This document shows positions 3,721 through 17,379 of a DNA stretch of 35,996 nt, in pieces. Made by a program: the position numbers and the translations under genes. Where the stretch lies: the NCBI GenBank assembly GCA_017431345.1, contig JAFRLH010000004.1, positions 1 through 35,996 of the forward strand, written 5' to 3'. The notes under the pieces were generated by a model. The model searched no databases and was not told the DNA's origin. It saw only the letters and a program-made list of their open reading frames with translations. The DNA is from Lachnospiraceae bacterium. Its GTDB lineage: Bacteria > Bacillota > Clostridia > Lachnospirales > Lachnospiraceae. Numbering within the stretch: the first letter of the stretch is position 1; every line of letters starts with the position of its first letter.

Positions 3721-3739
3721 AATATACTCCTAGTAGGTG

Positions 3740-3767
3740 TTGACATGACACTACATAGTGATATAAT
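3740..3767 (+). promoter_or_regulatory. Promoter P1 with shared operator-like motif
   Basis: A consensus -35 TTGACA (3740-3745) is separated by 16 bases from a consensus -10 TATAAT (3762-3767). The spacer contains the inverted repeat CACTA-CA-TAGTG, and AATAACACT (3765-3773) overlaps the -10. The same layout, spacing and AATAACACT motif recur at 14575-14608 beside a repressor-like gene. It drives the SleB-like hydrolase gene that follows. Confidence 0.8.
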
Positions 3768-3812
3768 AACACTGTGAGGTGTCATAACAACACTTACATG
3801 GGAGGTGAAAAT

Positions 3813-4819: not shown

Positions 4820-5176
4820 ATGTATGATCCGAGGTTTAAATTTCAGCCTTACATTGGCGATAACACGTATCTCAATCATGCAAACGATCTGTTGGATATA
4901 CAGGCCAAGATTCACGACAAGCTTGGAGAATGCGAGAACTTTTTGGGAGTTGATTTTTGTGATGTACATGCCGGTGGGATCCAAGTCCGTGGGCATCACA
5001 AGTTAATTGAACGGTATTCATATCCGGGCGTTCAGCCAACAATAGAGTACGATTTTAGCAACTCAGATGAAGTCGTAAACAAATTTATTGAGGCGTGGAA
5101 TGAGGCTGACAACGAAAAAGATGTTCAAAGTTTTTTAAGGTTTGTTAGAGAAGGCGAGAAGTACGGCTGGGATTAA
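4820..5176 (+). CDS. Hypothetical phage protein
   Basis: This 118-residue soluble protein starts at an ATG with an excellent ribosome site (AGGAGG at 4803-4808). No membrane segment or known catalytic motif is visible. The C-terminal third is acidic and probably helical (NSDEVVNKFIEAWNEADNEK). It has two cysteines near the middle but no CxxC pair. It is the last protein gene before the tRNA and structured-RNA cluster, and an RNA pseudoknot can be drawn directly after its stop codon. I do not recognise the family. Confidence 0.7.
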   Translation: MYDPRFKFQPYIGDNTYLNHANDLLDIQAKIHDKLGECENFLGVDFCDVHAGGIQVRGHHKLIERYSYPGVQPTIEYDFSNSDEVVNKFIEAWNEADNEKDVQSFLRFVREGEKYGWD

Positions 5177-5184
5177 AGACAAAT

Positions 5185-5272
5185 AAGTGCGAAGCGCGGG
5201 TCACACTTTCCCCATATAGATACCCCACCCCCTTAAAGAATGTTAATAGTTACCCCGTTAAAAATCCCGCGC
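5185..5272 (+). ncRNA. Structured leader spacer with H-type pseudoknot
   Basis: No protein gene is seen between 5177 and 5277. AAGTG (5185-5189) pairs with CACTT (5204-5208). The loop between them contains GCGCGGG (5194-5200), a perfect 7-base complement of CCCGCGC at 5266-5272, which lies six bases before tRNA-Gln. Together these make a possible H-type pseudoknot. No clear sigma-70 promoter is seen here, although one would be expected for the tRNA cluster. The function is unknown. Confidence 0.4.
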
Positions 5273-5277
5273 ACTAT

Positions 5278-5349
5278 TGGGCTATCGCCAAGTGGTAAGG
5301 CACAGCACTTTGACTGCTGCATACGTTGGTCCGAATCCAACTAGCCCAG
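5278..5349 (+). tRNA. tRNA-Gln(UUG)
   Basis: The acceptor stem TGGGCTA (5278-5284) pairs fully with TAGCCCA (5342-5348), with discriminator G5349. The anticodon stem CAGCA/TGCTG encloses the loop CTTTGAC (5308-5314), giving anticodon TTG. The T arm is GTTGG-TCCGAAT-CCAAC, with C in place of the near-universal U55. CCA is not encoded, so it would need host CCA addition. U34 reads CAA, a codon favoured by the AT-rich phage. The whole anticodon loop is complementary to the loop of the hairpin at 5399-5414. Confidence 0.9.
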
Positions 5350-5351
5350 TG

Positions 5352-5436
5352 CTCAATGTGGCAATTGAGTAATTTCCAAGGTTGGGATGAATGAGATTCC
5401 GGTGTCAAAGCCGGTCTCTCTATTGCACGTAAGTGC
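5352..5436 (+). ncRNA. Structured spacer with three hairpins, one antisense to the tRNA-Gln anticodon loop
   Basis: Three hairpins are seen. CTCAAT/ATTGAG (5352-5357 with 5364-5369) has a 6-base loop. CCGG/CCGG (5399-5402 with 5411-5414) is extended by GAGA/TCTC across a small internal loop. GCAC-GTAA-GTGC (5425-5436) is capped by a GNRA tetraloop. The second hairpin presents GTCAAAG (5404-5410), a perfect complement of the whole tRNA-Gln anticodon loop. AGTGCTCA at 5348-5355 recurs at 5432-5439, flanking the structure. This spacer is not a tRNA: no T arm or acceptor stem can be drawn. Confidence 0.45.
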
Positions 5437-5462
5437 TCATGTTTTAAAACCTCCTGTATAGA

Positions 5463-5530
5463 CGCTCATTAGTTTAGTGGAAGAACAACAAATCTATTTG
5501 AAGACACCGGTTCGATTCCGGTATGAGTGT
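5463..5530 (+). tRNA. tRNA-shaped element lacking an anticodon loop
   Basis: The acceptor CGCTCAT (5463-5469) pairs with ATGAGTG (5523-5529). The D arm is GTTT-loop-GAAC, and the T arm ACCGG-TTCGATT-CCGGT is perfect. The anticodon stem CAAAT (5489-5493) and ATTTG (5496-5500) is also perfect, but only CT lies between its arms, where seven bases belong. About five bases including the anticodon are missing, so it cannot decode. It may be a degenerate tRNA, or it may be kept for its shape. CCA is not encoded. Its last base overlaps the next hairpin. Confidence 0.6.
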
Positions 5531-5630
5531 TCGCATAAGTGTAAGTATGCGAATGTGCTTTTGTCATCTGTTAATGCAACCGTTGCCACACAATGACGAA
5601 GCTGCGCTCCGAATTCTGTAGCTTACACAG
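5530..5630 (+). ncRNA. Structured spacer RNA with kissing hairpins
   Basis: Hairpin 1 has an 8-bp stem TTCGCATA/TATGCGAA (5530-5537 with 5546-5553) and loop AGTGTAAG. Hairpin 2 has an 8-bp stem around 5560-5567/5593-5600, then TGT/ACA and GCAA/TTGC, ending in a CCG loop. Hairpin 3 is CTGT-AGCTTAC-ACAG (5616-5630). GTGTAAG in loop 1 (5539-5545) is a perfect complement of CTTACAC at 5622-5628, so hairpins 1 and 3 can kiss or form a pseudoknot. No coding frame is convincing here. Confidence 0.5.
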
Positions 5631-5652
5631 CATATACACGCTAAGTTGTATA

Positions 5653-5738
5653 ACTCATATGGTCTAACTGGAAAGACGGGTGATGGGATGGACGCATCCA
5701 GATGTCACCAGATCGAGGTTCGAATCCTTGTATGGGTT
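5653..5738 (+). tRNA. tRNA-shaped element with a 14-base hairpin inside the anticodon loop
   Basis: The acceptor ACTCATA (5653-5659) pairs with TATGGGT (5731-5737). The D stem is GTCT/AGAC and the T arm CGAGG-TTCGAAT-CCTTG is good. The anticodon stem GGTGA (5679-5683) and TCACC (5705-5709) is perfect, but its loop is 21 bases instead of 7. The excess of 14 bases is exactly a hairpin, GGATG-GACG-CATCC (5686-5699). Removing it leaves a 7-base loop without U33, so no normal anticodon results. The D arm resembles arginine tRNAs, but the amino acid cannot be assigned. Confidence 0.6.
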
Positions 5739-5739
5739 T

Positions 5740-5811
5740 GGGGATTAGCTCAGATGGTGAGAGCAGCGGCCTTATAAGCCGTGTGTCTTGGGTTCGAATC
5801 CCAAATCCCCA
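5740..5811 (+). tRNA. tRNA-Ile(UAU)
   Basis: The acceptor GGGGATT (5740-5746) pairs with AATCCCC (5804-5810), with discriminator A5811. The D arm is GCTC/GAGC, the anticodon loop is CTTATAA with anticodon TAT, and the T arm is TTGGG-TTCGAAT-CCCAA. An encoded U34 reading AUA is unusual for Ile in most bacteria, which use a lysidine-modified CAU tRNA, but it is common in phages and some Firmicutes. It supplies a codon that is rare in a GC-rich host. CCA is not encoded. Confidence 0.93.
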
Positions 5812-5812
5812 A

Positions 5813-5892
5813 TCAGAGCGATGCCAAGTGCACAGCATCTACGTGCAAGACAAGCGTCTGCGCAAACGCAAGCAAGGCACGGACAACTCTGA
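5813..5892 (+). ncRNA. Cloverleaf-like structured spacer between tRNA-Ile and tRNA-Thr
   Basis: The closing stem is TCAGAG (5813-5818) with CTCTGA (5887-5892). Inside are GATGC/GCATC (5820-5824 with 5835-5839), then CGTGC/GCACG (5842-5846 with 5877-5881) enclosing AGAC-AAGC-GTCT (5848-5859) and GCG-CAAA-CGC (5860-5869). TGCAC in the first loop can also pair with GTGCA at 5843-5847. It is tRNA-sized and branched, but it has no T-loop consensus. It might be a decayed tRNA or an independent RNA. Confidence 0.4.
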
Positions 5893-5899
5893 CGGGTGT

Positions 5900-5973
5900 G
5901 GCTGAGTAGCTCAGTTGGGAGAGCGTCGGGATTTGTAATCCGAATGTCGTTGGTTCGAACCCAACCTTGGCCT
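5900..5973 (+). tRNA. tRNA-Thr(UGU) with an 8-base anticodon loop
   Basis: The acceptor GGCTGAG (5900-5906) pairs with CTTGGCC (5966-5972) through two G-U pairs. The D arm GCTC/GAGC and T arm GTTGG-TTCGAAC-CCAAC are normal. The anticodon arm has one base too many. Either TCGGG/TCCGA closes with a G-U pair around the 8-base loop ATTTGTAA, or a G is bulged beside an A-T pair around the normal loop TTTGTAA. The anticodon is TGT. An 8-base loop is the hallmark of +1 frameshift suppressor tRNAs. Confidence 0.8.
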
Positions 5974-5990
5974 ATAAACACCCGTAATGC

Positions 5991-6073
5991 GCTGGCGTGG
6001 CGGAATCGGAAGACGCTGCGGATTTAAAATCCGTTTTCGTAATGAAGTGTGGGTTCAAGTCCCATCGCCAGTA
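5991..6073 (+). tRNA. tRNA-Leu(UAA)
   Basis: This is a class II tRNA. The acceptor GCTGGCG (5991-5997) pairs with CGCCAGT (6066-6072), and the D arm has the typical leucine layout (TGGCGGAATCGG). The anticodon stem GCGGA/TCCGT encloses TTTAAAA with anticodon TAA. A long variable arm and the T arm GTGGG-TTCAAGT-CCCAT follow. It reads UUA, a codon abundant in the phage and rare in a GC-rich host. CCA is not encoded. Confidence 0.93.
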
Positions 6074-6120
6074 CTAGTTGTTAAACATATACTCATTAGC
6101 TTTATAAGGAGAATTGTGTA

Positions 6121-6591
6121 ATGGAAAAGATTAAGTTATCACCGCCTTGGTTAACACTTTATCACGAGATTGATTGCCTCTTTAGGGATGATTCGGAAGT
6201 CAACGTTTCCTACGACGAGGAGACATACGAGATTAAGCTCTATGTAGATAACAATGCTAAGGCTCAGGCACTTACAGCATTACTTCCCAATGAAAAGGTG
6301 TTTGGGAATATTTCAGTTAAGATTACTGTCGTTCCTGCCAATCAGAATAACCTGACAAAGGCTGATTTGTTCCAAGAAGCGTTTTCCGGTAACCCGGCAT
6401 TCTCTTATGCCAAGGCTGTTGATAGTATTATGGCTCCTAACTTCACGTATGTGGTATTCGCAAAGAAGGTTGTACAGTTCTACAACGACAATATTGGGGA
6501 TATTCATGGACTGGAGTCCACACTGTTTCAGACAATTGCGAAGGATGTCTTCAAGGATGATGCCCAGATAAAGTTCTGCACAGACATCTAA
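6121..6591 (+). CDS. Hypothetical phage protein inside the tRNA cluster
   Basis: This 156-residue soluble, slightly acidic protein starts at an ATG preceded by AAGGAG (6107-6112) at good spacing. It has no membrane segment, cysteine pair or known motif; the only cysteines are one near the N terminus and one near the C terminus. The first half reads as alternating strands (YDEETYEIKLYVDNN, NISVKITVVPA) and the second half as helical. It sits alone between tRNA-Leu and tRNA-Pro. The location is suggestive of a role connected to the RNAs, but nothing in the sequence proves it. I do not recognise the family. Confidence 0.75.
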   Translation: MEKIKLSPPWLTLYHEIDCLFRDDSEVNVSYDEETYEIKLYVDNNAKAQALTALLPNEKVFGNISVKITVVPANQNNLTKADLFQEAFSGNPAFSYAKAVDSIMAPNFTYVVFAKKVVQFYNDNIGDIHGLESTLFQTIAKDVFKDDAQIKFCTDI

Positions 6592-6647
6592 TTTGTTATT
6601 ACCCCTTTCTTTGACGAGGACGGCGCTCTGCCATGCGTCGTTCTCAC

Positions 6648-6721
6648 CGGGGTGTGGCTCAGTTTGGTAGAGCGCTTGGTTTGGGACCAAGATGCCGCAG
6701 GTTCAAATCCTGTCACCCCGA
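6648..6721 (+). tRNA. tRNA-Pro(UGG)
   Basis: The acceptor CGGGGTG (6648-6654) pairs with CACCCCG (6714-6720), with discriminator A6721. The D arm is GCTC/GAGC. The anticodon stem CTTGG/CCAAG holds the loop TTTGGGA with anticodon TGG. The T arm is GCAGG-TTCAAAT-CCTGT. The roughly 55 bases before it contain a GGC-GCTCT-GCC hairpin within GACG/CGTC, another structured spacer. Confidence 0.93.
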
Positions 6722-6730
6722 CGGCCCGAA

Positions 6731-6906
6731 GCTGACAACCTATAGGTATGGCAAAGCATGAAACGGTGATGTCTAGTCAGCAGGCGCGAGCTAATCCGCG
6801 AACGAAAGCTGCTCCTGCCGGTGGAGCGGAGACGCGCACACAACTACACCGTAGCCCCGGACTATGGAGCCGGACAAGTGAAAGAGTAGGGTTGTGTGTA
6901 ACCGGC
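6731..6906 (+). ncRNA. Structured non-coding RNA with a pseudoknot, downstream of tRNA-Pro
   Basis: Elements found by eye: GCTGAC/GTCAGC (6731-6736 with 6776-6781); CGCG/CGCG (6785-6788 with 6797-6800); GCTCC/GGAGC (6811-6815 with 6823-6827); and a long 8-bp stem CACACAAC/GTTGTGTG (6837-6844 with 6891-6898) enclosing CCGTAG/CTATGG (6849-6854 with 6862-6867). The loop GCCGGT (6817-6822) is a perfect complement of ACCGGC at 6901-6906, forming a pseudoknot just before a short T-rich run. A frame of 67 codons (6748-6951) crosses it but looks non-coding. It matches no RNA family I can name. Confidence 0.5.
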
Positions 6907-6938
6907 GTTTTTCATTTTATGAGAGGGGGATCTTTGTC

Positions 6939-7505
6939 TTGGTTATTGTGATTGTTGGAGAGTCTGGAAGTGGGAAAACCACAATGGCAAATTGTATTGT
7001 TGATTCGTCTAACTACAGTCGGATTATAACCTACACCACTCGTATGCCACGAAATGGCGAAAGAGATGGTGTAGATTATCATTTTGTTCCAAAATCTTTC
7101 TTTAATAATAATGCAAATAAGTTTTTGGAAATGACAGAATACAATGGTGAGTTTTACGGATTATTAAAATCCGACATTGTAGATGCTGTTAGCAAGAATG
7201 AGAATGTTGTGGTTATTGTAACTCCTTCTGGAATGAGACGGATTCGAAACATTGTTCCATGGAGTAAATGCATTTGCGTTTATTTAAGTGTACCGAGGAG
7301 AGACCGGTTAATAAAAATGCTGTATCGGGGCGGAGATATAGATGGTTGTTACCGCCGCAGCTTATGCGATGTTGGTCAGTATGACGGTGTTCGAGAAGAA
7401 GCAGATGTGGTAATTGAGAATCCGGGTTATAAAAAATCGCCAGATCAGCTTGTACAGGAAGCAATGACTATCAGTTGGAATATGTGGGGAGTGTCACTGT
7501 TTTGA
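6939..7505 (+). CDS. Guanylate kinase-like nucleoside monophosphate kinase
   Basis: This enzyme probably phosphorylates GMP/dGMP, or another deoxynucleoside monophosphate, feeding dNTP supply. It starts at TTG 6939, nine bases after the purine-rich ribosome site GAGAGGGGG, and gives 188 residues, close to guanylate kinase length. The Walker A GESGSGKT lies at residues 7-14. The family hallmark YTTRMPRNGERDGVDYHF lies at 32-49, with the TTR and DGVDYHF substrate-contact residues. An arginine-rich lid-like segment lies around 125-150. A longer frame from 6894 would run through the upstream structured RNA and lacks a ribosome site. It leads the nucleotide-metabolism block (NrdH, NrdD, NrdG, dUTPase). 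Substrate specificity cannot be read from the sequence. Confidence 0.85.
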   Translation: MVIVIVGESGSGKTTMANCIVDSSNYSRIITYTTRMPRNGERDGVDYHFVPKSFFNNNANKFLEMTEYNGEFYGLLKSDIVDAVSKNENVVVIVTPSGMRRIRNIVPWSKCICVYLSVPRRDRLIKMLYRGGDIDGCYRRSLCDVGQYDGVREEADVVIENPGYKKSPDQLVQEAMTISWNMWGVSLF

Positions 7506-7693: not shown

Positions 7694-7799
7694 AGTGGTG
7701 ATTGCTTTTTTGGTTGGGCTTTTTGTTGGAGGAGCTGTCAGTATCGTTGCCGCTTCTCTCTGCTATATTTCAAAAAGGAGTGAAGAGCGTGAACAATAA
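7686..7799 (+). CDS. Tiny single-span membrane protein
   Basis: This 37-residue frame starts at ATG 7686, inside the end of the preceding gene, and stops at TAA 7797-7799, inside the start of the cysteine desulfurase gene. After MIK comes one long hydrophobic glycine-rich span (FLVGLFVGGAVSIV and onward) and a charged tail KRSEEREQ. Phages of Firmicutes often carry tiny proteins of this M-I-K-x-GLFVGG type. The role is unknown. The nested overlaps on both sides support real translation. Confidence 0.6.
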   Translation: MIKVVIAFLVGLFVGGAVSIVAASLCYISKRSEEREQ

Positions 7800-8958
7800 A
7801 GAATATTATCTGAATTCGGCATCTACAACAAAAGTGGATCCAGATGTTGCAGAAGTTATTTATAGAACGATAAACAAAAACTGGGCAAATCCCTCTGATC
7901 TGTATAAGTCCGGTCGCGAATCCATGAGTATCATTGAAGACGCACAGGACGTGATTAAAGATTATCTCCGAGCCAATGATGGCGATAAGATTATTTTTAC
8001 AGGGTCTGGTTCAGAAGCCAATAACTTAGCGCTCACAGGATGGTCGAAGGCTTTAGATAGAAGGATCGTCTGTGCCACGCCAATAGAGCATAAGTCCATT
8101 GTTGCTCAACCGTGTATACAATGGAATATCGCGGTTGATGAAGTTGGCAGAGTTGATTTAGAGTTCTTGAAAACATTGGCTCGTACCCTTTCTCGTTCGT
8201 ATTACGAAATCATGTTTTCAGTTGGCCTTGTAAACAATGAGATCGGGACAGTACAGGACATCGCAGAAATCTCCAAAATCATTCACGAATATAAGAACTG
8301 TTATCTGCATGTAGATGCCACACAGGGGTTTGCTCATTGTGGTGTAAGTGTAGATGGTATTGATCTTTTGTCGGCGTCATTCCATAAGATTGGTGTTCCT
8401 AAGGGCATTGGGATGTTATATGTACGTGACGGCATAGATTTATCTCCAGTAATATACGGCGGTCAACAGATGTATGGACTGCGAGCCGGGACTGAGAATG
8501 TTCCGTACATTGCTGGAGTGGCTTGCAAGTTCAGAAAATTAAGACATTATCATAACCCATACTATTGGGAACCTAGAGATCGAGAGATTGCGAAAACGAC
8601 TGCTGATTTAATGCAGAAGCTGTTACAAATACCGGGCAGCAGACTGAATGGGCCAATAGATAATAGAGTGCTTGGCAATATTAATATCAGCTTTACGGAC
8701 ATTGAAGGCTCGACATTAGCTCTCATGTTAGATACGGATGGGATTTATATAAGCTCCGGTTCTGCTTGCAACAGTCAATCTGTCGATCCGTCTCACGTTC
8801 TAAAAGCAATCAAAACTCCAGAAGAGTATCAGTATGGAGCAATACGTATAACAATTGACGAACCGCTATCCGAAGAGGAAGTTAATTATATTGCGGGAAG
8901 AATACAGCATTGGGTTTACACATTAAGACGAATCCATAGTGAAGAGGAAGGGGAGTGA
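7789..8958 (+). CDS. Cysteine desulfurase (NifS/IscS type), phage-encoded
   Basis: This PLP enzyme takes sulfur from cysteine as a persulfide for Fe-S clusters or thiolated tRNA. It starts at GTG 7789 with AGGAG at 7776-7780, giving 389 residues, the normal length. FTGSGSEANNLAL (cofactor phosphate binding), ATPIEHKS, the HVDATQGFAH segment, the PLP lysine in SFHKIGVPKG (K200) and the catalytic cysteine in SSGSACNS (C327) are all present, so it should be active. It sits between the kinase and the NrdH/NrdD/NrdG genes. Sulfur supply for the NrdG iron-sulfur cluster or for thiolation of the phage U34 tRNAs are both reasonable inferences. DndA-type DNA sulfur modification is less likely, since no dnd genes are nearby. 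Confidence 0.92.
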   Translation: MNNKEYYLNSASTTKVDPDVAEVIYRTINKNWANPSDLYKSGRESMSIIEDAQDVIKDYLRANDGDKIIFTGSGSEANNLALTGWSKALDRRIVCATPIEHKSIVAQPCIQWNIAVDEVGRVDLEFLKTLARTLSRSYYEIMFSVGLVNNEIGTVQDIAEISKIIHEYKNCYLHVDATQGFAHCGVSVDGIDLLSASFHKIGVPKGIGMLYVRDGIDLSPVIYGGQQMYGLRAGTENVPYIAGVACKFRKLRHYHNPYYWEPRDREIAKTTADLMQKLLQIPGSRLNGPIDNRVLGNINISFTDIEGSTLALMLDTDGIYISSGSACNSQSVDPSHVLKAIKTPEEYQYGAIRITIDEPLSEEEVNYIAGRIQHWVYTLRRIHSEEEGE

Positions 8959-15948: not shown

Positions 15949-17292
15949 ATGCTTTCGTTGAAAGCGCTTCTTAGGTCCGATATAATAACTGAAGAGGAGC
16001 TAGGAAGCGCTGTAGATACAAAAGAACTAATGTATAACAAAGCAAAAGCTTTTGTACTGGCGCGACATGACGCGACAATTACACAATTAAAGAAAGGAGC
16101 ACACGCAGGAAAGTATAAAACATATATCGGAACACCCAGAAGAAGCATTATGGCGTCCACTTATGACGGACTTATCGAAAAACTCTTCAAGTATTATTTT
16201 GACGGAGAGACTACCAGTACCAACGTCACCCTCAAAGAGGGGATTAAGTGGGAGGCAGAGTTCCGACAAAAGGTTAAGGGGACTCAGCGGATAACAATAG
16301 AACGGGCTTGGGATTGTATCAATCGTTCGTTACCGGAAGAATTACTTGAACAACCAATGAACGAACTAGATACAGAACAGATATGCGAGGCGATACGTAC
16401 AAGAATCGCAGAGAAGAATCTCAAGATGGCAAGTGTAAGAACGGTATTGCAGTGGATTCACGCAGCATACCGGCAAGGAATAAATAAAAAGCTTGTCGAT
16501 TCAGATCCAATCTATGGAATTAAAGCAGATTATTTTGCCGTAATGTGTTCCAAAAACCAGAAAAAGAAAGACTTCTGGGACGATAACAGCGGAGAAACAC
16601 TACCACCAGAAACCATTAGAAAGATCGAAGAGCACTTGTGGGAATATATAGACGATGTAACCGCAAGAGCAATTCTCTTAAATCTATATATTGGTTTGAG
16701 GATCGGAGAAACTCCTGCCATTTTAAAGTCCGATATAGACGAAAATTTTGTCCATATCCATCGCCAACAGCAGAGATGCCCACGCAATAAAGAGACTGGA
16801 AGTCCTCAGAAATTTGAGATCGTAGAATACACAAAAAACGAGCGTGGAAATTCTCGCGGAGGAAGATATATACCATTAGATCTTCAGCCGCAAATAAGAG
16901 AGTTTATTGATATCTGTTTTGAAAAATCCGATAAAGACAGTGAGTATCTATTCTCTGACAAAAACGGCGAGCCAATCTCAAAAGATTCTATCAGGACTTA
17001 CTTGCGAAGACATCTTGAAAAGCTCGAAATAAAAACTACGAAGAATCACGTTTTTCGCAAGTCGTTAAATTCCAACGTACTAATTCCAAATGGGTATGAC
17101 GCGATAGAAAGAAGTATGATCCTTGGGCATAGTGTAAGAGTTAACATGGAGAACTACACATACCAAGGAAATTACAAGTACAGGGAGATTTTGGATAAGG
17201 CGTCTGAGTTAGTAACTCAGAGTAACTCAAAAAAGAGCACACAAAAGATAATCCAATTTAACATTGAAAAGTGCCGAAAAGCCTATAAATAA
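15949..17292 (+). CDS. int: Tyrosine recombinase, phage integrase
   Basis: This site-specific recombinase integrates the phage at the adjacent tRNA-Thr gene. It has 447 residues. The catalytic domain shows the first arginine in GLRIGE (R251), HVFRK with H367 and R370, LGHS with H394, and the nucleophile Y403, nine residues after that histidine. The candidate beta-strand lysine lies in the region around KNERGNSRGGRYIPL. The N-terminal half (about 1-210) contains an arm-binding/SAM-like core-binding region. The ATG directly follows the previous stop, with GAGGAGG upstream. The gene ends 15 bases from the 3' end of the tRNA, the usual int-att geometry. Codon and base use belong to the AT-rich phage. 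Confidence 0.93.
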   Translation: MLSLKALLRSDIITEEELGSAVDTKELMYNKAKAFVLARHDATITQLKKGAHAGKYKTYIGTPRRSIMASTYDGLIEKLFKYYFDGETTSTNVTLKEGIKWEAEFRQKVKGTQRITIERAWDCINRSLPEELLEQPMNELDTEQICEAIRTRIAEKNLKMASVRTVLQWIHAAYRQGINKKLVDSDPIYGIKADYFAVMCSKNQKKKDFWDDNSGETLPPETIRKIEEHLWEYIDDVTARAILLNLYIGLRIGETPAILKSDIDENFVHIHRQQQRCPRNKETGSPQKFEIVEYTKNERGNSRGGRYIPLDLQPQIREFIDICFEKSDKDSEYLFSDKNGEPISKDSIRTYLRRHLEKLEIKTTKNHVFRKSLNSNVLIPNGYDAIERSMILGHSVRVNMENYTYQGNYKYREILDKASELVTQSNSKKSTQKIIQFNIEKCRKAYK

Positions 17293-17306
17293 AGGATTTT
17301 CCGTAA

Positions 17307-17340
17307 AGCTGGCAGCGGGAATCGGACCCGCGACCTCCGC
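17307..17340. other. Phage attachment site (att), 3' part of tRNA-Thr
   Basis: The integrase gene ends at 17292 and the 3' end of the tRNA-Thr gene is at 17307. Left of here the sequence is AT-rich phage DNA; right of it the sequence becomes GC-rich host DNA. Tyrosine integrases commonly recombine within the 3' half of tRNA genes and restore it. The exact core cannot be defined because the matching repeat lies outside the window. Confidence 0.6.
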
Positions 17341-17379
17341 ACTACCAATGCGACGCACTACCGACTGTGCTATGCCAGC
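17307..17379 (-). tRNA. tRNA-Thr(GGU), host
   Basis: On the minus strand the acceptor GCTGGCA (17373-17379) pairs with TGCCAGC (17308-17314). The D arm is GCAC/GTGC. The anticodon loop TTGGTAG gives anticodon GGT. The T arm is GCGGG-TCCGATT-CCCGC. CCA is not encoded. It is transcribed toward the prophage from its own promoter at 17412-17441. It is the probable bacterial attachment site, so its 3' part is likely supplied by the phage. Confidence 0.9.

Follow-up and report, generated by a model that had tools for sequence, protein, structure and literature searches.

The DNA analysed here, referred to as the window, is a stretch of 35,996 nucleotides from a Lachnospiraceae bacterium (GenBank assembly GCA_017431345.1, 3.27 Mb in 94 contigs; contig JAFRLH010000004.1, positions 1 to 35,996). 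From position 1 to about 17.3 kb it has 36 to 47% G+C per kb and carries phage genes, encoding a DnaE-type polymerase, a cell-wall hydrolase, a guanylate kinase, an anaerobic ribonucleotide reductase, a dUTPase and a phage integrase; beyond about 17.3 kb the G+C content is approximately 53 to 62% and the genes are metabolic and transport genes. The window looks like the end of a prophage within its host. The phage part contains a tRNA array (5277-6721), and between the last tRNA of this array, tRNA-Pro(TGG), and the guanylate kinase gene (gmk), the forward strand carries an element of about 185 nt (6722-6906). Comparison with related loci strongly supports that this element is one member of an undescribed family of structured RNAs of phage tRNA arrays.

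In the array, ARAGORN predicted six tRNAs (Gln, one with an abnormal anticodon loop at 5462-5532, Ile, Thr, Leu, and Pro), and a seventh gene, tRNA-like, lies at about 5652-5739; its over-long anticodon arm folds as a 12-bp stem. A first-pass annotation of this DNA had counted five tRNAs. Rfam at gathering score found tRNAs only over the array, and at E≤10 three non-tRNA matches were listed, all with E values of 0.21 or worse. The tRNA-Pro(TGG) gene, on the forward strand, was placed at 6648-6721 by Rfam (70.7 bits) and at 6648-6722 by ARAGORN. Its discriminator base is the A at 6721, and 4 nt separate this base from the first helix of the element, P0.

Anatomy of the element at 6722-6906

The predicted family fold, strongly supported by the comparisons below, comprises P0, P1 with inner arms, hairpin P2 with the loop AGCUAAUC, the strand AACGAAAG, hairpin P3, helix P4, and a pseudoknot joining the P3 loop to a few bases after P4. 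In the window, with all features on the forward strand, P0 would pair 6726-6727 with 6783-6784 (CC/GG; TC/GA in L063 and CT/AG in L066, the L numbers denoting phage loci introduced below), and P1 would pair 6731-6736 with 6776-6781 (GCTGAC/GTCAGC; TCCGAG/CTCGGA in L068 and TAGGATC/GATCCTA in L080). Inside P1 lie the arms P1a (6738-6740/6745-6747), P1c (6750-6753/6770-6773; GGCA/TGTC, nearly invariant and therefore weaker evidence), and P1b (6756-6757/6766-6767), which has a TGAAA-type loop. Hairpin P2 (6785-6800) reads CGCG-AGCTAATC-CGCG, with an outer pair that is CG, GC, TA or AT depending on the member, and is followed by the conserved single strand AACGAAAG (6801-6808). P3 pairs 6809-6814 with 6824-6829 (CTGCTC/GAGCGG), and its loop holds the 5' strand of the pseudoknot, GCCGGT (6817-6822). 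P4 pairs 6837-6844 with 6891-6898 (CACACAAC/GTTGTGTG), and the 3' strand of the pseudoknot, ACCGGC (6901-6906), lies 2 nt past P4 and is followed by GTTTTTCATTTT, a U-run coming after the pseudoknot in the window.

Across members, the RNA measures 144 to 186 nt. The core match of the covariance model described below, R1, spans 6721-6828 in the window (114.1 bits, the window being among the sequences from which R1 was built), and the 3' part with P4 and the pseudoknot extends to 6906. A protein-coding reading was rejected: within the first 170 nt, two of the three frames are interrupted by stops in 8 of the 10 members and the third in all 10. An ATG reading frame (6748-6951) exists in the window.

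Related loci, covariation and the loop-tail pseudoknot

The first-pass annotation had argued that hairpin loops in nearly every spacer of the array have perfect partners elsewhere, more often than chance would allow. Under a fixed rule, by which a spacer counts if a hairpin loop finds a perfect partner 6 or more bases long, this held for three of six spacers, against a mean of 1.46 in 300 dinucleotide-shuffled sets, 38 of which were as good. Complementary 7-mer pairs numbered 4, compared to a shuffled mean of 2.08, and 53 of the 300 sets reached 4. The spacer 6722-6910 was unremarkable by the loop-partner rule (140/300 shuffles as good). Among the five stretches for which folding energies were calculated (spacer 6592-6647 was left out), four were ordinary (z of 0.36, -0.50, -1.09, and -0.20) and 5351-5461 stood out with a z of -2.81. 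As loop-partner counts and folding energies were both near ordinary, the window alone could not decide the matter, and homologues were needed.

A relative was found by comparing the spacers with loci reached through the guanylate kinase gene. The spacer 6723-6935 matched L033, from another phage, over 32 nt (6778-6809; 90.6% identity, E 3.7e-6); the element of L033 likewise lies 3' of a tRNA, and it was the only one of the 28 loci reached by this route to carry the RNA. In the P2 hairpin, the two differ by a compensating change, from CGCG/CGCG in the window to TGCG/CGCA in L033. Scanning IMG/VR with the pattern GAGCTAATCCNNNAACGAAAG gave 8 contigs, in all of which the element immediately follows a tRNA or tRNA-like gene, and R1 was built from eight distinct aligned members. 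A looser second scan (AGCTAATCN{3,6}AACGAAAG) gave 38 further contigs, among which only L077 and L080 contained any ARAGORN tRNA; exactly these two were strong R1 matches (E 2.7e-20 and 1e-14, respectively). The other 36, with E values of 0.0024 or worse or unlisted at E≤10, were set aside as chance, including the best of them, L081 (E 0.0024) and L092 (E 0.0071), which had no ARAGORN tRNA. A third scan, whose pattern was drawn from the RNA's other half, added no independent member.

The working set thus comprised ten loci, the window and nine IMG/VR phage loci (L063 to L069, L077, and L080). Two pairs are close (L065/L069, 89%; L068/L077, 95%), pairwise identity is otherwise 45 to 75%, and about eight members are well separated. 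Set aside were L070 (a near-copy of L069), L033 (the same contig as L065), and L121, whose model match ends at the contig end and whose sequence equals that of L068 over the part shown. The carriers are distantly related phages; the DnaE of the window phage had a detectable relative in five of the nine records, with 25 to 41% identity per matched piece. IMG/VR relatives were found neither for the proteins encoded at 4820-5173, 6121-6588, and 7702-8955 nor for DnaE. R1 had no match within 23 to 24 kb around DnaE in L058 and L059 (the bacterial contigs nearest by DnaE, 45%), in Clostridioides phage LIBA6276 (L062), or in the faecal phage MT835556 (L061). Blastn of three members against a phage collection and of one against plasmids gave nothing credible; a 25-nt match to phiAxp-2 (E 0.08) was rejected, scoring 10.4 bits with the model (E 0.069) and having no annotated tRNA in the 1.2 kb examined. 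Among host genomes, the family draw had a match in 1 of 397, the class draw in 1 of 391, and the phylum draw in 1 of 398, and in every case the match was the source genome itself; these draws overlap (1,186 listings in total) and were searched with stricter filters, by which weak matches are lost. An RNA ligase (PF09414) was found in four and RtcB in none of the nine records, which may be fragments.

Covariation supported the helices in several alignments. Unguided RNAalifold analysis of eight members placed P0, P1, P2, and P3, with two-sided changes in 13 of 17 pairs. In the alignment fitted to R1, 91.8% of cells pair and 14 of 17 pairs are changed on both sides, whereas shuffles averaged 7.0 such pairs and slid pairings reached no more than 6; the covariation score was 0.643, against 0.209 for shuffled and at most 0.216 for slid pairings. 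A plain MAFFT alignment with a 25-pair hand structure gave 87.1% of cells paired, 14 pairs with two-sided changes, and a score of 0.430 (0.174 shuffled, at most 0.120 slid). L077 and L080 stood outside the derivation of the R1 structure, and L080 retains P1 with the other letters given above. These values rest on ten members, with the shuffles leaving kinship among them in place, and P0 of L067 was re-read by eye, the script having placed it elsewhere. Covariation in related phages, the check that the first-pass annotation had suggested, came out in favour of 6722-6906.

The same comparison bears on the pseudoknot. A strand complementary to the P3 loop was found 0 to 3 nt after P4 in all nine members that could be parsed and, by eye, in L080, in which the script could parse neither P4 nor the pseudoknot and where the latter has 11 bp (TTTTATAGTTT/AAACTATAAAA). 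Besides GCCGGT/ACCGGC in the window, the strands are CGCCAGA/TCTGGCG in L064, GCCAGA/TCTGGC in L066, GTGGTGT/ACATCAC (one G-U) in L067, GCCCC/GGGGC in L068, ACCCC/GGGGT in L069 and L077, CTCC/GGAG in L065, and GCCC/GGGC in L063. When partners were exchanged between nine members (L077, whose downstream part resembles that of L069, was left out), own partners scored 146 compared to 113 ± 7.9 for permuted ones, and 2 of 20,000 permutations were as good. For P4, own strands paired at 58 of 59 positions and exchanged strands of equal length at 26 of 70; as the P4 strands were picked by hand, only this contrast counts. The own pseudoknot partner ranks first in the window, L064, L066 (a tie), L069 and L077 (a mutual tie), and L080, and the true loop outscored a control, in which it was read backward against the same downstream stretch, in 6 of 10 members and equalled it in L063. 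The loop-tail pseudoknot has been rebuilt from different letters in the relatives, with support that is uneven between members. Of the five pairings claimed by the first-pass annotation, only that of 6817 with 6901 was vindicated, and this by comparative evidence, namely the covariation and the re-made pseudoknot.

Several observations weigh against this reading. The own partner ranks second in L063 and L067, third in L068, and seventh of 10 in L065; the backward loop outscores the true loop in L065, L069, and L077; and the pseudoknot has only 4 to 5 pairs in L063, L065, L068, L069, and L077. Hand selection of the strands of P3 and P4 preceded the exchange tests, and with an automatic choice of P3, for which the script took other hairpins in L063 and L064, between 0.3% and 89% of shuffles were as good, depending on the sequence. 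The single-sequence fold of 6722-6906 is no more stable than its shuffles (z 0.36). Finally, AGCUAAUC and AACGAAAG, like the P2 loop AGCTAATC, belonged to the search patterns, and their invariance is partly due to selection; L033, which was found without patterns, has both AGCUAAUC and an identical AACGAAAG.

It could be argued that there is no RNA function at all, and that these features reflect complementarity arising by chance in phage spacers, or the remnant of an ancient mobile element. The counts in the window, which do not beat shuffles, and the ordinary folding energy would fit this. However, the two-sided changes in 14 of 17 pairs, the permutation test of the pseudoknot, and the sharp split of the pattern matches by tRNA presence speak against it, and we consider it highly improbable. 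In our view, chance is refuted for 6722-6906 and is the default for the other spacers.

For these other spacers, the words quoted by the first-pass annotation are all present where it had placed them (GCGCGGG at 5194, CCCGCGC at 5266, GTCAAAG at 5404, GTGTAAG at 5539, CTTACAC at 5622, TGCAC at 5829, and GTGCA at 5843, in addition to GCCGGT at 6817 and ACCGGC at 6901), but their pairings fared differently. The pair 5194/5266 in spacer 1 is singly the least likely to arise by chance (4/300 shuffles), yet its spacer has no homologue among the 16 loci compared, and the energy model prefers an outer stem of 5186-5191 with 5270-5275. GTCAAAG is, as claimed, an exact 7-mer complement of the tRNA-Gln anticodon loop (CTTTGAC, 5308-5314), but its spacer also lacks a convincing homologue. 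The GTCAAAG loop belongs to a stable hairpin that lies after tRNA-Gln and before the tRNA following it, and the spacer of this hairpin is the only one of the five folded stretches to beat its shuffles (z -2.81). In the energy model, the strands at 5539 and 5622 form the outer stem of a long hairpin (41/300 shuffles as good), and the 5-mer pair at 5829 and 5843 was equalled by 114 of 300 shuffles. The best match of any other spacer to the 16 loci covered 24 nt of spacer 2, against L077 on the opposite strand (E 0.030). An unfiltered model search of the array gave no credible second copy, the next best match having an E value of 0.087 over 10 nt. A modular design shared by the spacers, as first suggested, was not borne out, given joint pairings within chance, no convincing homologues of the other spacers, and no second copy. 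The proposal of an undescribed phage RNA beside the tRNAs holds for a single spacer, 6722-6906 (covariation, pseudoknot, nine other loci, and no Rfam match).

tRNA neighbours and possible modes of action

A tRNA or tRNA-like gene immediately precedes the element in all ten loci. This gene was identified by ARAGORN or reached the Rfam gathering score in seven loci (Pro in the window, Leu in L063, Asn in L065, Trp in L067, Thr in L069, Pro in L080, and in L064 a 114-nt tRNA with an insert, placed by Rfam) and was judged tRNA-like by eye in three (L066, L068, and L077). As the isotypes differ, the link is to tRNAs as such. The distance between the discriminator base and P0 is 4 nt in seven of ten loci and 5, 6, and 6 nt in L065, L067, and L080, respectively (by eye), the 6 nt of L067 including an encoded CCA. 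On the other side, the next called tRNA begins 3 to 4 nt after the pseudoknot in L063, L064, L066, and L068, and a tRNA-like gene follows after 3 nt in L069 and L077 (by eye), so that in these six loci the element fills the spacer end to end. A single significant copy was found in each of the eight records searched whole (including L069 and L070, which are near-copies), a second match in G449 reaching only E 0.145. For L077 and L080, the copy search covered stretches of their records; the L080 stretch has one copy, although its array comprises 13 tRNAs and a tmRNA.

That there is one copy, that the tRNA partners vary, and that the element fits exactly between tRNAs all suggest a gene for an RNA with ends made by tRNA processing and an action in trans. 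We favour, with moderate confidence, that the element is a phage small RNA of this kind, cut out by tRNA-processing enzymes; its transcription, excision, action in trans, and partner are what we infer. The RNA would be transcribed together with the tRNAs; its 5' end would arise as the 3' end of the preceding tRNA is processed, and its 3' end as RNase P frees the next tRNA. In the window, termination at the U-run that follows the pseudoknot may instead produce the 3' end. Once released, the compact RNA of approximately 144 to 186 nt would act in trans, probably by presenting the loop AGCUAAUC and the strand AACGAAAG to a component of the host translation or tRNA machinery, either a protein or a ribonucleoprotein. 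A point against this reading is that in four of the ten loci (the window, L065, L067, and L080) no tRNA directly follows the element.

The main rival, because of the conserved unpaired blocks and the pistol ribozymes in three of the arrays, is that the element is a new self-cleaving ribozyme, or an RNase-guiding element, which would free the 3' end of the preceding tRNA in cis, a task proposed for theta ribozymes, from which it would differ in fold. The tRNA-processing scaffold proposed by the first-pass annotation survives in this form. Ribozymes often have conserved unpaired bases and pseudoknots, and the element has a conserved unpaired block as well as a pseudoknot, at a near-constant place 4 to 6 nt after the discriminator base (by eye). 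Rfam placed pistol ribozymes in the arrays of L065 (1292-1362), L069 (1141-1201), and L077 (6582-6655) and a group I intron in L067 (5195-5389), and there is a precedent in the theta ribozymes, whose cleavage sites in gut phages are often at tRNA 3' ends according to PMC10879173. Against a ribozyme stand the one significant copy per record searched whole and the one in the L080 stretch, which has 13 tRNAs and a tmRNA; there is no conserved base at the tRNA junction, and the theta/HDV hallmarks looked for (a G at +1 and a junction helix) are absent. We regard cleavage or guided cleavage in cis as a tentative alternative to the trans-acting small RNA. Somewhat more doubtful still is its specific form, a new class of pseudoknotted catalytic RNA, about 145 to 185 nt long, which would cleave the tRNA precursor in cis and have no kinship with HDV/theta, pistol or any other described class, in phages some of which have pistol ribozymes in their arrays as well.

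The position of the element also bears on a role in cis in the transcription or stability of the array, as a processive antiterminator or as a shield of the 3' end against exonucleases. The put- and EAR-like elements are processive antiterminators, and one copy within an untranslated stretch would suit such a role, as would the location after the last called tRNA of the array or stretch in the window, L067, and L080, and the 3'-end pseudoknot followed by a U-run in the window. An antiterminator is, however, expected at the start of an array, and the element lies late in or inside arrays, which makes this less likely. Likewise, the tRNA or tRNA-like gene directly following in six loci means that the element is not the end of the transcript there. 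We consider a cis role of this type unlikely.

Other features of these arrays were also recorded. The arrays of L063 and L080 include a tmRNA, and in L080 ARAGORN reported tRNAs with the anticodons TTA ("Stop", 2021-2094) and CTA ("Pyl", 3731-3806); this phage may read stop codons. A 132-nt stretch starting in a tRNA-like T arm is shared by L065 (1806-1937), L069 (251-382), and L077 (7139-7269); it is 95 to 98% identical between L065 and either of the others, compared to 68 to 88% for longer matches of L065 with these, and is possibly another tRNA-linked RNA. tRNA genes with abnormal anticodon regions or inserts recur among the phages carrying the RNA (5462-5532 and about 5652-5739 in the window, 1106-1219 in L064, 9459-9561 in L068, and 2086-2169 in L065). 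They have good acceptor and T arms combined with the lack of a normal 7-base loop, a 12-bp anticodon arm, or about 10 to 40 extra bases. Decay, a role as decoys for tRNA-cutting defences, or the presence of small introns could account for them. Elsewhere in the window, the phage integrase gene (PF00589) adjoins a tRNA-Thr(GGT) at the G+C step (15949-17379, with the tRNA at 17307), which is probably the prophage attachment site. Downstream of gmk lies a phage-borne class V aminotransferase (PF00266, 7702-8958), relatives of which are annotated as cysteine desulfurase in two phage records.

Comparison with known RNAs

None of the ten members matched a family of Rfam 15, five of them (the window, L064, L066, L068, and L080) being scanned at E≤10 and the other five at gathering score; matches lying over the element itself had E values of 1.3 or higher, far under gathering scores. 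The Infernal search against Rfam suggested by the first-pass annotation thus left 6722-6906 without a known family. No group I intron or T-box model matched over the element. The literature searched gave no description of this RNA; it may still be an unnamed entry among the 3,161 human-microbiome candidates tabulated in PMC8040213, a table outside the search.

Like the element, tmRNA is a structured RNA within phage tRNA arrays, but it is a separate gene in the L063 and L080 arrays, and the element matches no tmRNA model. Pistol ribozymes (RF02679) are likewise small pseudoknotted RNAs and occur in three of the same arrays; they differ in having 68 model positions, and the element matches no pistol model.

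In theta and other HDV-like ribozymes, the P1 helix starts at the cleavage site. No junction-anchored helix stood out in our loci: in the best case, L077, 36 of 300 mononucleotide shuffles were as good, and in the others 121 to 300. The element resembles the theta ribozymes, which are minimal HDV-like ribozymes, in its location at phage tRNA 3' ends, and the preceding genes are mostly without an encoded CCA (9 of 10 by eye, L067 having one); in PMC10879173, 4.5% of the tRNAs encode CCA. Theta ribozymes are described in the same paper as having G1 at the tRNA end, whereas the first base after the discriminator is never G in the ten element loci (C, C, A, C, A, C, U, C, U, and U). No HDV-family model reached its gathering score in any of the ten loci.

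According to PMC12286853, GOLLD and ROOL are structured RNAs of phages and prophages, of unknown function and often near tRNA islands; many GOLLD members exceed 800 nt, and both RNAs form multimeric cages. The element is also a phage RNA near tRNA genes (10/10 loci), but with its 144 to 186 nt and other fold it differs from both, and their models gave no match at E≤10 in the five members or at gathering score in any of the ten loci. The roles of the known structured RNAs of phage tRNA islands are largely open, and the present element is easily testable, being short, present in one copy per record searched, and placed at a near-constant distance from a tRNA. It also illustrates that spacers of tRNA arrays can harbour RNA genes missed by gene and RNA annotation. 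We rate it as a new family within this group, in which a compact RNA with a covariation-supported pseudoknot joins the few structured RNAs of phage tRNA islands, GOLLD, ROOL, and the theta ribozymes.

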